In this document: positions 26,052-31,701 of the stretch, one piece after another
How the letters are laid out: each line of letters opens with the position of its first letter
Position numbering within the stretch: the stretch's first letter is position 1
Origin: Rheinheimera sp. 1928-s
GTDB lineage: Bacteria > Pseudomonadota > Gammaproteobacteria > Enterobacterales > Alteromonadaceae
DNA: 64,000 bases
Reading direction: 5' to 3'
Assembly: GCF_029269265.1 (NCBI RefSeq)
Contig: NZ_JARIXP010000001.1
Location: 920,855-984,854, forward strand
Made by a program: the position numbers and the translations under genes
The notes under the pieces: generated by a model
Seen by the model: only the letters and a program-made list of their open reading frames with translations
Told to the model about the DNA's origin: nothing
The model's database searches: none

Positions 26052-27233
26052 TTACTTTTCAAAAGTACCTTTTACCAGCGCCTTGCCGTCTTTTACCAAT
26101 TGGCGACCTTTGGCAAAGACATCACGAATTGTTAAATCAGTTTTATTCAAAAGCACTAAGTCTGCGTCCATTCCTGCTGCAATACGGCCTTTGTGCTTCA
26201 ATCCCAGCACTGCTGCTGGTGCTGCAGTTATAGCAGTGATGGCATCTGATAAAGGTACCTTATATTCAAGCACTGCCTGGCGGGCGACCTGATATAAAGT
26301 TTGTACTTTGCCTACTTCAAGCCCAATCAGTTCTCCATGGTCGTTATAGACTGGCAAACTGGCATTGCCATCTGAGCTTAATGTCAGATTCATTGCCGGA
26401 ACACCTGCTTCTAAAGCTCTTGCTAAAGCTGCTGCAGCTGCTACTTCACCATGTTGTAAGTCGTAACTTGTGGTGCTGGTAGTAAAATCAATCACAGCTC
26501 CTGCTTTTGCAAGCTCAATACCGGCCTGAAACACAGCTTCATTGCGGTTGATATGAGTTGGGTAGAATTGGGACAGTTTAAGCTCTGTACCTTCTACAGC
26601 TTGCCACAATGGCTGTAACAACGACTCACCACTCCCTACATGCACACTGACTACACCAGCTTTACCTGACAAAATTCCACCCACTTTAGCCGCAGCTGCT
26701 ACTTTACGGATTTCATCTAGAGTGGGTTGAGAAGAGCGGAAATCGCTGATGGCAATTTCGCCGACGCCGATAAACTTGTCGATGAGGATCAGATCATCCG
26801 TGATATTACCCATTAAAGTCCGGCACGGAATTTCGTAAGAACCTGTATGGCAATAAGTGCTGATACCTTCAGTTTCCAGCGCATGAGCTTTGGCTAACAG
26901 ATTAGTTAAGGTTCTGGTGGTTGCGTCTGTGCCCAGCACGCCAATAGCTGTGGTGACTCCACCTAAAGTGGCATCTGTTAACTGCATTTCAGGAGTACGG
27001 CTGGCAAAACCACCTTCACCGCCACCGCCAATAAAATGTACTAAAGAATCAACAAAACCCGGCACTAAATAACAATGGCTGGCATCAATCACTTCAATGG
27101 GCAAATTACTGCTGCCAGCTTCAAAGCCAGAACCTAAAGCTGCGATTTGATTACCGGCTACCAAAAGATCCATCAAACCTAAATCCGTTGGGCTTACTAT
27201 ATGGGCATTTTTAAATAGTTTTATTGCGCTCAT
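26052..27233 (-). CDS. IadA-family isoaspartyl-dipeptidase-like amidohydrolase with altered metal ligands
   Basis: 393 residues, the IadA length, with clear family stretches: FIGGGGEGGFASRTPE, YPTHINRNEAVF, LTLSSDGNASLP and a C-terminal VKGTFE. IadA splits beta-aspartyl dipeptides at a two-metal site held by an HxH pair, a carboxylated Lys, two His and an Asp. Here the HxH position reads L64-V-H66, and the Lys region (GVKxAISDHRS in E. coli as I recall it) reads GVGEIAISDFRS with E159. H198, H227 and D288 remain. A Glu/His/His/Asp set resembles single-metal NagA. The true substrate is therefore open. AAGGA precedes the ATG. It is the last gene of a three-gene operon. Confidence 0.88.
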   Translation of the reverse strand: MSAIKLFKNAHIVSPTDLGLMDLLVAGNQIAALGSGFEAGSSNLPIEVIDASHCYLVPGFVDSLVHFIGGGGEGGFASRTPEMQLTDATLGGVTTAIGVLGTDATTRTLTNLLAKAHALETEGISTYCHTGSYEIPCRTLMGNITDDLILIDKFIGVGEIAISDFRSSQPTLDEIRKVAAAAKVGGILSGKAGVVSVHVGSGESLLQPLWQAVEGTELKLSQFYPTHINRNEAVFQAGIELAKAGAVIDFTTSTTSYDLQHGEVAAAAALARALEAGVPAMNLTLSSDGNASLPVYNDHGELIGLEVGKVQTLYQVARQAVLEYKVPLSDAITAITAAPAAVLGLKHKGRIAAGMDADLVLLNKTDLTIRDVFAKGRQLVKDGKALVKGTFEK

Positions 27234-27242
27234 TTTATGTCC

Positions 27243-28724
27243 TTATTGATAACCAATGGCGACTGCGACCAGCACTGCTGTACTTGCAAGAGCGAAAAGC
27301 CAGAGCTGCAAACGCCAGGCAAACTTTGCCCATAACATCCAGTCAACCCGCACTACACCCAGGCAACCAATTAAAGAAGCGGAAGTGGGCACTATGCAGT
27401 TGGTTAAACCATCACCTAATTGAAAAGCTAAAACTGCTATTTGGCGGGACACTCCAACCAAATCCGCCAAAGGCGCAACTAATGGCATAGTTAAAGCTGC
27501 CTGGCCTGAACCTGAGGTAACAAAGAAGTTAAACACGGATTGGAAAATCAACATAAACCAGGCAGATACATAGCTGGATACACCATCAAAGCTGCTGCCA
27601 GCGTAATGCAATAACGTATTGAGAATAGAAGGTTCTGTGGCGTCGTCGCCTCCTAACAGCAGCACTATACCTTTGGCCATACCTACTATCATGGCGGCAG
27701 GTAATAATTCAGCTGCACCTTGTTTAAAGGCATCAGCAGCTCCATTCACAGTCATTCGTTTGCCAACAATACCTAAAATGGCTGTGGCTATACCTAAAGC
27801 AAAAAACTGAGTGGCAATTTCAGGAATGTAATAACCACGGGCCACTACGCCCCAAATTACCCAGGTAATACCGGCGACAAAGAGCAATAAAATGGCAGCA
27901 TCTAAGGTACCGAAGCTGGTACTTTGTTGTTCTTGCTGTTGGGCGCGCAGTTTTTGATCTGAAGCAAAACTGACAGAAAGTTGTGGGTTCTTTTTAATTT
28001 TTGCCGCATAACGCATGGTAAAGATGATGCCGAAAAGGGTGAACACAACCCAAAGTGCAATACGATAGTCAGCCCCTGACATCAGAGGTAAACCCGCTAT
28101 ACCCTGAGCTATAGCGACACTAAATGGATTCATCCAGGAGGTTGCAAAACCAATCTGAGTGGCGATGTAAGTAACCAGCACAGTGGTAATAGCATCGTAA
28201 CCTAAAGCCAGCATCAAAGGCAGTAAGACAATACAAAAGGCAATGGCTTCTTCACCCATGCCAAAAACTGCACCACCTAAAGAAAACAGCAAAAACATTA
28301 AAGGTATAAATAAATAATCTATATCTTTGGTTTTGGCTATTAATGCCAGAATACCGTTATTAACAGCTCCTGTTTTCATAATGATGCCAAAGGCACCACC
28401 GGTCAGCAGAATAAAGGCAATCACGCCTATAGCTGCGCCCATTTTGTCGCCAGAAACCATGCCCTCAAAGGCGTAGTTTAAAAAGCCAACCTGACCACCT
28501 TCACCAAACAAAGGCACTGCTTTGTTTTGTTCCTCAGCAAACTGGAAGCTGTTTGGGTCAATACGGGCTTTAACAGTTTCACCTGCGGCGTTTAGGGTTT
28601 CCGGTAACATCTGAAAATAACCAGCCGGAATAAGGTGGGACGCAATAGCTGCCGCTATCATCACAAAAAAAAGTATGACAAAAGCATCCGGCATGCTGAC
28701 CGGTTTTTTGCTTGTAACTTGCAT
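27243..28724 (-). CDS. YfcC-family inner-membrane permease
   Basis: 493 residues and about 12-13 hydrophobic helices. The sequence (MPDAFVILFFVMIAAAIASH, GAFGIIMKTGAVNNGI, FGMGEEAIAFCIVLLPLMLA, SGSGQAALTMPLVAPLADL) is typical of the YfcC family within the ion-transporter superfamily. E. coli YfcC is annotated as a putative basic amino-acid antiporter; the substrate here is not proven. It lies 9 bp upstream of the IadA-like gene and 64 bp after the TonB receptor gene, so it probably moves the peptide or amino acid that the enzyme handles. Confidence 0.88.
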   Translation of the reverse strand: MQVTSKKPVSMPDAFVILFFVMIAAAIASHLIPAGYFQMLPETLNAAGETVKARIDPNSFQFAEEQNKAVPLFGEGGQVGFLNYAFEGMVSGDKMGAAIGVIAFILLTGGAFGIIMKTGAVNNGILALIAKTKDIDYLFIPLMFLLFSLGGAVFGMGEEAIAFCIVLLPLMLALGYDAITTVLVTYIATQIGFATSWMNPFSVAIAQGIAGLPLMSGADYRIALWVVFTLFGIIFTMRYAAKIKKNPQLSVSFASDQKLRAQQQEQQSTSFGTLDAAILLLFVAGITWVIWGVVARGYYIPEIATQFFALGIATAILGIVGKRMTVNGAADAFKQGAAELLPAAMIVGMAKGIVLLLGGDDATEPSILNTLLHYAGSSFDGVSSYVSAWFMLIFQSVFNFFVTSGSGQAALTMPLVAPLADLVGVSRQIAVLAFQLGDGLTNCIVPTSASLIGCLGVVRVDWMLWAKFAWRLQLWLFALASTAVLVAVAIGYQ

Positions 28725-28745
28725 GAGATTTACCTGTTAAATGCA

Positions 28746-28764
28746 GCCGGGCTAAAAGCCCGGC
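28746..28764 (-). other. Intercistronic stem-loop between receptor and permease genes
   Basis: GCCGGGCT-AAA-AGCCCGGC is a perfect 8-bp stem. No T run follows on the minus strand, so it is more likely an mRNA-stabilising or partial-attenuation hairpin than a full terminator. It would let the receptor be made in excess over the downstream genes. Confidence 0.55.
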
Positions 28765-28788
28765 TTCTATTATTCGCTTCGAGTGCTG

Positions 28789-31701
28789 TTAAAACTTGTG
28801 GCTTAGTGCAATACGGAAGCTACGACCTAAAGCATCATGGTTAATAGAATCAAAACCACGGCTTGAACCATAAGCTGTTGGTGGATCCCGATCAAACAGA
28901 TTGTCGATATTAAAGCTGATCGTGGTTTGGGCAAAATCATATCCCAAATTCATTCGCCATGTAGTCCAGGACGAGACCTGACGGGTTCCATCTGCGTTTA
29001 ATTGACCTAAGTCTTCCAGCTCGTCCAGTTCACGGCCACGCAGCCCTTCAATATCATCTTCGTAGGAATCCGTGTAATTCGCCGAAATGCTACTGAAGAA
29101 GTCACCTCTTGACCAGCTAAAGCGCACGCCAGCTACAGTTTCAGGGTAACGCCAGCTACCAATCAGCTCTTCGATTTCATCAGAGCCTGCTTTATTGCGC
29201 TCAAAAGATAAATAATGGGTGGCATCCAGGCTCAGGCCGAAGGTGCCAGCTTCAGTATCAAATCTGTGATCGTACGCCAGATCTATACCACTGACAGTTT
29301 GCTCACCGGTATTTTCCAGCAGCAATACATGGTCGCGGAACAGTGGTAACTCAGCAAAACGTGGGTCGTCGTAAGCTACCCAGGCATCCAGTATTTCTGT
29401 CATATTGGCGCCGTCTTGTTCGATAGTCAGACCTGCGTTGTCTGTTACATCACAAAGGGCTTCATCAAAAGAAATACCCTGACTACCTTCAGGTACTAAA
29501 CCACAATGGCGTAAAGAAGCATCCCCAATAGCGCGGGCCAGAACACCAGTCATATTGGTATCGACCAGATTTTCATGTTCAAAGCGCCAGTAATCCACTG
29601 TTAATGTGCTGTTTTCTGACAAGCTTAAAGCAAAACCTAAACTGATGGAGTCAGACTCTTCTGCCTGCAGTTGTGGGTTACCCAACTCCAGCACATTGTT
29701 GCCACGTTCATCACCAAAACCTTCGCAGAATAAATCTGCAACGGCCTGGTTGGCACCACAATCAAAACTTGCTGTGGTGGTTCTGAGTTTTACTCCGGCC
29801 TGAGTTAACGAAGGTGCACGGAAGGACGTGGCGTAAGAAGCTCTGACGATCAGCTCTTCGACAGGACGGTAACTAAAGCCAATTTTTGGGTTAAAGGTGC
29901 CGCCAAAATCATCAAAGTGGTCATAACGTGCGGCAAGCTGCATATCTAAAGTACTGGCCAGCGGCACATTAAATTCAGAGAATGCCGCCCATTGAGTGCG
30001 TTCAGCTGCCGATAAACTGGAACCAAAACCAAAAACATCGACCAGATAACCGTTTTCAGCTCTGGCTATTGCATTGTCTGAAGGGGTATCAGTGATTTTT
30101 TCTTTACGAATTTCAAGGCCAAAAGCAGAGCTAATCACGCCATCGTTAAATTCCATTAAATCGCCATTAAAGCGCGCATCCCAACCTAGTACTGTACTTT
30201 TACCTTTGCGGTTTGGCATTTCCTGTGCAAGCGCCAGCAAAGCTTCGTTGCTGCTATCGTTTTGCAGGAAAGGGTTATAGATAGCGCCTAAAGAGCTGCT
30301 GCTGCAACTTAAGCTATCGTTATCAGCGTCATAGCTGGCAATAGTGCCGTTAGAGCAAAGTTCACCTGCTAAAGCGGCGTGGTATTTATATCTGTTGTAA
30401 ACGCCTTTAGTGGCAACCTGATCAGATTTTGATTCAGAGTAAATAACAGCCGACTCCCAACCCCAATCACCCACTGAACCTGATAAAGCACTGACTAAAC
30501 GCAAAGCGTCTGTTTCCACTTCTATAGTGCGTGGTGTACCAAAACGGGCATCAAAAGCAAAACCATAAAGCTCACGGCCAGCGACTGTATCAAAAGGGTC
30601 TATATACAATTGATCGAGTAACTCATCACGAAGGGCAGGGCCAAAAATATCCAGAGTGCTTTCGTCTGCAAAAGGGCCTTCACTGTCATCCAGTTGATTA
30701 ATAGGAGCTGGGCTTGAGAGGGCGACAGATTTGGTATTGCTGAAAAACACATCGGTATTCCAGCTGATATCACCAAAGTCTTTCTGGAAAATAGCTCCAG
30801 TGGAGTAACTGGTTAAATCTGAGTTCAGTTGGTCATCTTCATTGGGGTAATAAGCGCAAATTTCTTCACCAAACTCTGTAGTCACAAGCTCGGTAGCGCA
30901 GCCTGGCGTAGCCAGTTCATTGCCCGAGCGTACAGAGTTGTAATAAATATTGGGTGTGTTTTTTGGCAGGTAAGAGTATGAACTTTGTAGCAGGGGAGAA
31001 CGGGTAAAGTCTCTGTCCTGAGCACTAAAGGCGTTACGGTCAAGATAATCAGCGAATACAGTCAGTTGACCGCCAGCAACTTGCTGACCAAATACCAGAT
31101 TCAGGTTGCGGCGGCTCTCATCACTGGACGCCGCACTGTCGCCATAAGAGGCATTAAGCTCCATGCCTTCATAATCTTTTTTCAGTATGTAGTTAATAAC
31201 ACCAGCTACAGCATCTGCCCCGTAAATGGCCGAAGCGCCTGTGGCTAAGACTTCAATACGTTCAATGGCAGCTAAAGGAATGCTGTTTACATCAACAAAA
31301 TTCTGAGTGCCTGCCGCAAATGAACTGGCAGCAACACGGCGGCCGTTAATCAGCGTCAAAGTGGAAGCCGGGCCTAAACCACGCAATGATGCTGCGGCCT
31401 GACCTGCTGGCGTTGACGTTGAGGTTGCACCACTTTCACTGGTGGAAAAGGTGCCGTCACCGCCTCTCAATTGGCCTACGTCTTTCAATAAATCAAAAAT
31501 ACTATTAGCGCCCGATTTTTTAATATCGTCGCTACTGATCACGACCAGCGGCTGAGCACCTTCTAAATCAACCCCCTTGAGGCGGGAGCCTGTGACTTCG
31601 ATTTTTTCTATTGAATCGTTTTCAGTTGCAGTTTCAGTTTGAGCAGATACGGAAAAGCAGCAAGCCGCAACGGCCAGCGAAAGCATAGATGGTTTAAACA
31701 T
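28789..31701 (-). CDS. TonB-dependent outer-membrane receptor
   Basis: 970 residues. The signal peptide (about 1-21) ends VSAQT. A TonB box-like IEKIEVTGSRL follows at about residues 31-41, then the plug domain (AASLRGLGPASTLTLINGRR, AIYGADAVAGVINYIL) and a 22-strand barrel ending in a terminal Phe (FRIALSHKF), as needed for Bam-dependent assembly. There is no STN signalling domain. This subtype in Alteromonadales is often linked to peptidases and amino-acid uptake. It heads an operon with a YfcC permease and an IadA-like enzyme, suggesting uptake of a peptide ligand. A promoter and structured leader lie upstream. Confidence 0.93.
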   Translation of the reverse strand: MFKPSMLSLAVAACCFSVSAQTETATENDSIEKIEVTGSRLKGVDLEGAQPLVVISSDDIKKSGANSIFDLLKDVGQLRGGDGTFSTSESGATSTSTPAGQAAASLRGLGPASTLTLINGRRVAASSFAAGTQNFVDVNSIPLAAIERIEVLATGASAIYGADAVAGVINYILKKDYEGMELNASYGDSAASSDESRRNLNLVFGQQVAGGQLTVFADYLDRNAFSAQDRDFTRSPLLQSSYSYLPKNTPNIYYNSVRSGNELATPGCATELVTTEFGEEICAYYPNEDDQLNSDLTSYSTGAIFQKDFGDISWNTDVFFSNTKSVALSSPAPINQLDDSEGPFADESTLDIFGPALRDELLDQLYIDPFDTVAGRELYGFAFDARFGTPRTIEVETDALRLVSALSGSVGDWGWESAVIYSESKSDQVATKGVYNRYKYHAALAGELCSNGTIASYDADNDSLSCSSSSLGAIYNPFLQNDSSNEALLALAQEMPNRKGKSTVLGWDARFNGDLMEFNDGVISSAFGLEIRKEKITDTPSDNAIARAENGYLVDVFGFGSSLSAAERTQWAAFSEFNVPLASTLDMQLAARYDHFDDFGGTFNPKIGFSYRPVEELIVRASYATSFRAPSLTQAGVKLRTTTASFDCGANQAVADLFCEGFGDERGNNVLELGNPQLQAEESDSISLGFALSLSENSTLTVDYWRFEHENLVDTNMTGVLARAIGDASLRHCGLVPEGSQGISFDEALCDVTDNAGLTIEQDGANMTEILDAWVAYDDPRFAELPLFRDHVLLLENTGEQTVSGIDLAYDHRFDTEAGTFGLSLDATHYLSFERNKAGSDEIEELIGSWRYPETVAGVRFSWSRGDFFSSISANYTDSYEDDIEGLRGRELDELEDLGQLNADGTRQVSSWTTWRMNLGYDFAQTTISFNIDNLFDRDPPTAYGSSRGFDSINHDALGRSFRIALSHKF

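Follow-up and report, generated by a model that had tools for sequence, protein, structure and literature searches.

Can an isoaspartyl dipeptidase remain a working enzyme when the first histidine of its zinc-binding HxH pair has been replaced by leucine? The question is raised by an iadA-like gene in a 64,000-nucleotide stretch of the Rheinheimera sp. 1928-s genome (contig NZ_JARIXP010000001.1, positions 920,855 to 984,854), referred to here as the window. HxH is among the most constant features of the amidohydrolase superfamily, and in the 393-residue product of this gene it reads L64-V65-H66, so we file the protein as an LxH variant and not as a canonical two-zinc IadA. The reading that we favour, with a probability of roughly two in three, is that it would still work as an isoaspartyl dipeptidase, cleaving beta-aspartyl-arginine and beta-aspartyl-lysine brought into the cell, with a zinc centre one histidine short, and that it is encoded in a probable scavenging operon. 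This reading draws on sequence comparison, gene neighbourhoods, and a structure model. The gene and the residues discussed are as follows; conservation counts refer to the survey of distinct proteins described below.

26052..27233, minus strand: iadA-like gene, 393 aa (open reading frame and translation); LxH variant of a Type I (Glu) isoaspartyl dipeptidase
27036..27050, minus strand: codons 62-66, D-S-L64-V-H66 = GAT TCT TTA GTA CAT; Leu in place of the first His of HxH
26757..26759, minus strand: codon 159 (GAA), Glu in GVGEIAISD; the zinc-bridging residue in solved Type I IadAs
26640..26642, minus strand: codon 198, His; metal ligand by homology, kept in 125/125
26553..26555, minus strand: codon 227, His; metal ligand by homology, kept in 125/125
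26370..26372, minus strand: codon 288, Asp; by homology catalytic as well as a metal ligand, kept in 125/125
26361..26363, minus strand: codon 291, Ala, partner of Leu64; Ala in 105/106 LxH proteins, Gly in 19/19 HxH proteins

A Type I isoaspartyl dipeptidase with an altered HxH pair

The protein scores 482 bits on the IadA profile TIGR01975, whose cut-off is 331, and its residues 5-392 cover profile positions 2-389 of 389. An initial annotation, made from the sequence of the window, had described it as IadA-like overall, which this match confirms, and the residues it named (L64-V65-H66, E159, H198, H227, and D288) are all found when read from the codons. The AlphaFold2 (AF2) model, with a predicted local distance difference test (pLDDT) score of 93.7, has the two-domain amidohydrolase fold of solved IadAs and superposes on them at Z 59.0 for 8dqn (root-mean-square deviation, rmsd, 1.9), Z 58.8 for 1ybq (rmsd 1.6), and Z 58.1 for 5xgx, the best other family reaching Z 31.6. 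The residues assigned to substrate binding and catalysis in IadA (E73, T102, Y133, R166, R230, D288, and S292) are present.

Two departures from a canonical IadA had been proposed, the broken HxH and the loss of the bridging lysine, and the second does not carry the weight given to it. IadAs are divided into Type I, with Glu at the bridging position, and Type II, with a carboxylated Lys and restricted to Enterobacteriales (PMC5517026). In CpsIadA two zincs, at occupancy 1.0, are bridged by Glu166 (PMC5517026), in FiBAP crystals E156 bridges two zincs (PMC7774594), and in LmIadA, numbered as the window protein is, two zincs are ligated by H64, H66, H198, H227, and E159 (PMC10206079). Glu159 is thus no sign of a one-metal centre, for in these crystal structures the equivalent Glu takes part in holding a pair of zincs. 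A lysine is indeed missing, and its place is taken by the normal Type I residue in a segment, GVGEIAISD, that is identical letter for letter in FiBAP (Fervidobacterium, 7cf6). By sequence, then, the bridging position, which in IadAs holds either carboxylated Lys or Glu, is filled by E159, and bridging of metals in the window protein is predicted from that identity.

What stands is the change at residue 64: the pair has lost its first His, which leaves one of the zinc sites a customary ligand short and may mean an altered metal centre, either two zincs with one site weakened or a single zinc. Printed sequences of solved IadAs all carry HxH here (DPHVH, DQHVH, DSHAH, and DAHAH), and both histidines are named as ligands in the LmIadA and FiBAP papers (PMC10206079, PMC7774594). 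The Type I enzymes FiBAP (7cf6), CpsIadA (5xgw), and LmIadA (8dqn) resemble the window protein in fold, length, and the Glu with its GxGE insertion, and share H198, H227, D288, and the checked substrate-site residues, position 292 being Cys in CpsIadA and LmIadA; they differ in combining HxH with Gly291, whereas the window protein combines LxH with Ala291. Type II E. coli IadA (1onw) likewise agrees in fold (1ybq, Z 58.8) and substrate-site residues, but pairs Lys with HxH where the window protein pairs Glu with LxH.

Leu64 and its companions among relatives

Leu64 was found in 45 of 45 aligned loci, comprising orthologues from Rheinheimera and two neighbouring genera together with a second Rheinheimera paralogue, and its codon varies among relatives (TTA, CTG, and TTG). 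This spread over many loci with different Leu codons, extending to 106 of 125 distinct proteins in the wider survey, rules out a sequencing error. Decay of the gene is likewise ruled out by a ratio of non-synonymous to synonymous substitution rates (dN/dS) of 0.05-0.11 against four same-genus orthologues (a fifth pair, with another genus, yielded no value): selection on the gene is purifying.

For the survey, loci were gathered by whole-protein or family hidden Markov model (HMM) searches and supplemented with hand-picked regions spanning the identity range. Matches occurred in 22/22 genomes at the level of genus, 127/295 at family, 69/394 at order, and 18/398 at phylum, and the motif was read in the fetched loci rather than in every match. 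After a partial copy (L022) was dropped and repeats were merged, 166 loci gave 125 distinct proteins: 106 LxH-Glu, 14 HxH-Glu, and 5 HxH-Lys, shares that describe a sample centred on the family to which the window belongs. Sampling across the class (8/369 genomes with a match) added six proteins outside this count, all HxH-Glu, and outside Pseudomonadota two proteins were read, FiBAP (Fervidobacterium) and one from Acetoanaerobium (Bacillota), both HxH. A separate set of 80 loci, all LxH, was retrieved in part by matching D[SP]L[VA]H and does not enter the frequencies. Lys-type IadAs in the sample also occur outside Enterobacteriales, e.g. in Sulfitobacter. Identity to the window protein is 43-100% for LxH proteins and 37-44% for HxH proteins, with the exception of the Acetoanaerobium HxH protein at 52%; named Rheinheimera relatives stand at 87-94%.

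Conservation around the altered pair is strict. D62, H66, E73, T102, Y133, R166, H198, H227, R230, and D288 are kept in 125/125 proteins, and the same residues plus E159 and S292 in 106/106 LxH proteins. Since H66 is invariant in the LxH proteins, we argue that a metal is still bound there. A second change accompanies the first: position 291, Gly in every HxH protein, is Ala in all LxH proteins but one. It lies three residues after D288 and directly before S292, the equivalent of Cys297 of CpsIadA, which contacts substrate (PMC5517026), placing a second substitution near the same metal and substrate site in the sequence. When columns 64 and 291 were masked and a tree was built from 94 sequences, its 72 LxH tips grouped together at a node support of only 36; a single origin of LxH is thus what the best tree favours, and it is not proven.

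A new ligand standing in for H64 was sought among potentially metal-binding side chains fixed in LxH but uncommon in HxH proteins. E263 is the most conspicuous, present in 72/72 LxH rows and in 9% of 22 HxH rows; compared by sequence, it is unlikely to be a substitute, because the HxH proteins of Fervidobacterium (FiBAP) and Acetoanaerobium carry it too. F165 (SDFRS in place of the usual SDHRS) was dropped as a partner of L64, occurring in only 11/106 LxH proteins, all from the closest Rheinheimera relatives.

Two observations concern close relatives. In the F165 loci L106-L112, L137, and L168 the otherwise conserved His beside Arg166 is Phe, and no linked cyanophycinase was seen in these nine, of which L168 breaks off within iadA. 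A second LxH paralogue, in most cases with DSLAH and 52-55% identical to the window protein, occurs in certain genomes of Rheinheimera and neighbouring genera, among them Alishewanella agri (L023-L031, L175, L176, L179, L182, and L185); at L175, L179, L182, and L185 it stands together with a receptor-like protein of ~990 aa, an S51 protein, and YfcC.

Gene neighbourhood and cyanophycin

Upstream of iadA in the window lie two genes for membrane proteins, and behind it a putative transcript end:

27243..28724, minus strand: YfcC-type transporter gene (DcuC family); NF008611 718 bits, cut-off 500; PF03606; 9 bases upstream of iadA
28789..31701, minus strand: TonB-dependent receptor gene, probable outer-membrane importer of the locus; PF00593 and PF07715
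25973..26007, minus strand: terminator-like hairpin with T tail just behind iadA, 14-pair stem; consensus match only; likely transcript end

The three same-direction genes, TonB receptor, YfcC transporter, and isoaspartyl dipeptidase as the last, look like an uptake operon. A GC-rich hairpin at window positions 28745-28765, between the receptor and YfcC genes, may set differing expression of the two parts.

Residue 64 and this setting go together in the relatives. A YfcC homologue lies directly upstream of iadA in 67/77 LxH loci vs 0/19 HxH loci, a count that omits three loci with short upstream DNA, one partial copy, and 40 loci (L047-L086) with ~0.1 kb flanks, eight of which were refetched with wide flanks; Fisher's test gives 4e-13, a value that is overstated, as the rows are related and some regions were chosen by hand. 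Of the 80 loci in the separate LxH set, some of them cut by contig ends, 79 contain a YfcC homologue, 66 a large S51 cyanophycinase-like gene, and 62 a TonB receptor. Among 19 LxH loci from other searches with wide flanks, again some contig-cut, the numbers are 12, 11, and 11, respectively. In Pseudoalteromonas, a public record has consecutive genes annotated as cyanophycinase, TonB receptor, yfcC, and iadA, and a gene of the arginase family stands nearby. The cyanophycinase-like protein of these loci is large and has a signal-like N-terminus (by eye); one such S51 protein, compared with solved structures, gave three matches, all cyanophycinases (best E 1.3e-9). The usual neighbours of LxH genes thus point to beta-aspartyl-arginine and beta-aspartyl-lysine dipeptides as the probable substrate.

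HxH genes sit differently. In 12 of 14 HxH-Glu loci (not L188 or L255) an S51 match occurs near iadA without YfcC, the frame measuring 271-286 aa in ten. In the only one of these clusters that was HMM-checked, L193, a cyanophycinase (268 bits) lies beside a cyanophycin synthetase (1135 bits), and similar frames were seen by eye in other HxH-Glu loci. The five HxH-Lys loci, read with wide flanks, showed no YfcC, S51, or receptor homologues.

The association of LxH with YfcC-type uptake is no sharp rule, however, as 10/77 LxH loci lack YfcC upstream; neighbours were listed for seven of them, L220, L029, and L031 having flanks of only ~1.5 kb. At L197, L204, and L249, ABC-transporter (amino-acid) gene sets adjoin iadA in place of YfcC, and the binding proteins at L197 and L204 resemble binders of lysine, arginine, and ornithine (TIGR01096 241 and 229 bits, under the cut-off of 256). 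At L207, L242, L251, and L252 no transporter set was seen by eye. A cystathionine gamma-synthase family gene follows at L204.

Cyanophycin, a cyanobacterial nitrogen store, may be a source of such dipeptides. Cyanophycin utilization loci, in which cyanophycinase, IadA, and a transporter occur together, have been taken as a sign of cyanophycin scavenging (Ben Hania et al., as cited in PMC10206079). The LxH loci of relatives repeat this grouping, but with a YfcC-type transporter and a TonB receptor, and the window's species lacks the linked cyanophycinase. Cyanophycin has also been proposed as a TonB-receptor substrate from gene neighbourhood (PMC3400609), a secreted putative cyanophycinase has been noted in P. 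tunicata (PMC2536512), and extracellular cyanophycin use has been inferred for Thalassotalea (PMC7564069). Cyanophycin scavenging is therefore already known in general. Its link with LxH was not found in the literature: we found no mention of the LxH group in the isoaspartyl dipeptidase and cyanophycin papers searched, subscription papers lying mostly outside the search, and no paper joining cyanophycin with YfcC or HxH with 'first histidine'.

In the window's genome the transporter and dipeptidase are linked and cyanophycinase is not, so the locus is not a cyanophycin utilization locus in the full sense. The idea that this species has no cyanophycinase at all was dropped after the family HMM found an unlinked one of 445 aa (TIGR02069 ~181 bits, cut-off 126.6) and a second, weaker match (65 bits); with an unlinked cyanophycinase, a full route is possible. 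The two cyanophycinase-like proteins that this genome encodes away from the locus (L238:10106-11443 and L239:4301-5737), of which one exceeds the TIGR02069 cut-off, both begin, by eye, like signal peptides, and their regions contain no IadA gene.

How the altered centre might work, and what it means

Under the favoured reading, the TonB receptor and YfcC transporter would import the dipeptides, and the LxH enzyme would cut their isopeptide bond, yielding, for example, Asp and Arg. Glu159 would bridge two metals, as the chemistry of its relatives implies, with H198 and H227 holding one and H66 and D288 the other, which would be short of its usual His since residue 64 is Leu. Leu64 and Ala291 may pack against each other at this H66/D288 site. 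D288 would activate water, Y133 and the metals would stabilise the intermediate, and E73, R166, R230, and S292 would hold the substrate, roles taken from the IadA papers. One precedent comes from CpsIadA: its text lists just the second His, Glu, and Asp at one zinc, although the enzyme has the first His (PMC5517026), which suggests that three side chains are enough to bind a zinc, provided that this list, possibly an incomplete one, leaves out no ligand.

The main rival is a one-zinc enzyme, in which the H66/D288/E159 site is empty without H64 and the zinc at E159/H198/H227 works alone, as the single metal of NagA does, but on the same beta-aspartyl dipeptides. We consider this unlikely, though it deserves to be taken seriously, since one ligand is missing in 106/106 LxH proteins. 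Yet H66 is kept in every one of them, whereas NagA lost both histidines. FiBAP, with a full HxH, was active as isolated with 1.14 +/- 0.37 Zn per monomer, but its crystals show two zincs (PMC7774594), and the ligand set named for CpsIadA, at occupancy 1.0, may suffice to hold the second zinc, given a full listing of ligands in that paper. The retention of D288 says less, as a catalytic base would be needed in either case.

Far less probable is a NagA-like function. NagA has QxN in place of HxH, both His being lost, and holds one metal with Glu/His/His/Asp ligands. The initial annotation saw this ligand set in the window protein and suggested a different amide or a deacetylation substrate; both proteins do share the amidohydrolase fold and Glu/His/His/Asp, and an altered metal site can accompany an altered reaction. 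The likeness fails at the second His, which the window protein retains as H66, as do all 106 LxH proteins. The proposed change of substrate fares no better: E73, T102, Y133, R166, R230, D288, and S292 are invariant across the 106, the usual neighbours are uptake and cyanophycinase-like genes that point to beta-aspartyl-Arg/Lys, and among Foldseek matches the solved IadAs, at E 4e-50 to 6e-44, rank well ahead of NagA, which reaches E 1e-17.

Weakest is the idea of a relative that has lost catalysis and is retained for a structural or regulatory role, on the model of the collapsin response mediator proteins (CRMPs), relatives of dihydropyrimidinase: metal-ligand loss is a common origin of such proteins, but here the other ligands and checked catalytic residues are invariant (two alignments, 106 LxH proteins), dN/dS is low, and the window's genome holds no second IadA, its sole other match being of 64 residues (E 5.5e-4).

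Several points weigh against the preferred reading of an active, import-fed dipeptidase. The locus cyanophycinase of relatives has no match in the window's genome at E 1e-20, as in seven of the 22 Rheinheimera genomes, this one included, so cyanophycin may not be the source of its dipeptide. The two LxH-locus S51 proteins tested score 106 and 76 bits, under the TIGR02069 cut-off of 126.6, though above the Pfam S51 cut-off. Seven LxH loci (L197, L204, L207, L242, L249, L251, and L252) have no cyanophycin genes nearby, and the Aeromonas LxH locus L210 has none within 5 kb. HxH IadAs of cyanophycin clusters are active and promiscuous (PMC10206079), so the pathway alone does not explain Leu64. Since the 72 LxH tips fall together in the tree, the link between Leu64 and Ala291 may reflect one ancestor or event. 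The evidence for the operon consists of gene order and a consensus hairpin, and we found no activity or metal data for LxH proteins in the literature.

Structure papers class IadAs by Glu or Lys (PMC5517026, PMC7774594). We tentatively propose, at somewhat less than even odds, that the LxH proteins make up a type of their own, the third after the Glu-HxH and Lys-HxH isoaspartyl dipeptidases: long-kept, with one His fewer in the zinc centre, and tied to taking up and degrading basic beta-aspartyl dipeptides that come from cyanophycin. They might also prefer another metal, or select Arg or Lys more tightly than the promiscuous HxH enzymes do. In the loci read, residue 64 tracks gene setting, LxH occurring with YfcC-type uptake and most HxH-Glu with cyanophycinase-like genes and no YfcC; if this holds widely, it would improve the annotation of cyanophycin eaters in water and soil. 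If the LxH group does work without the first His, it would offer a natural experiment on the number of ligands that a two-metal hydrolase requires.
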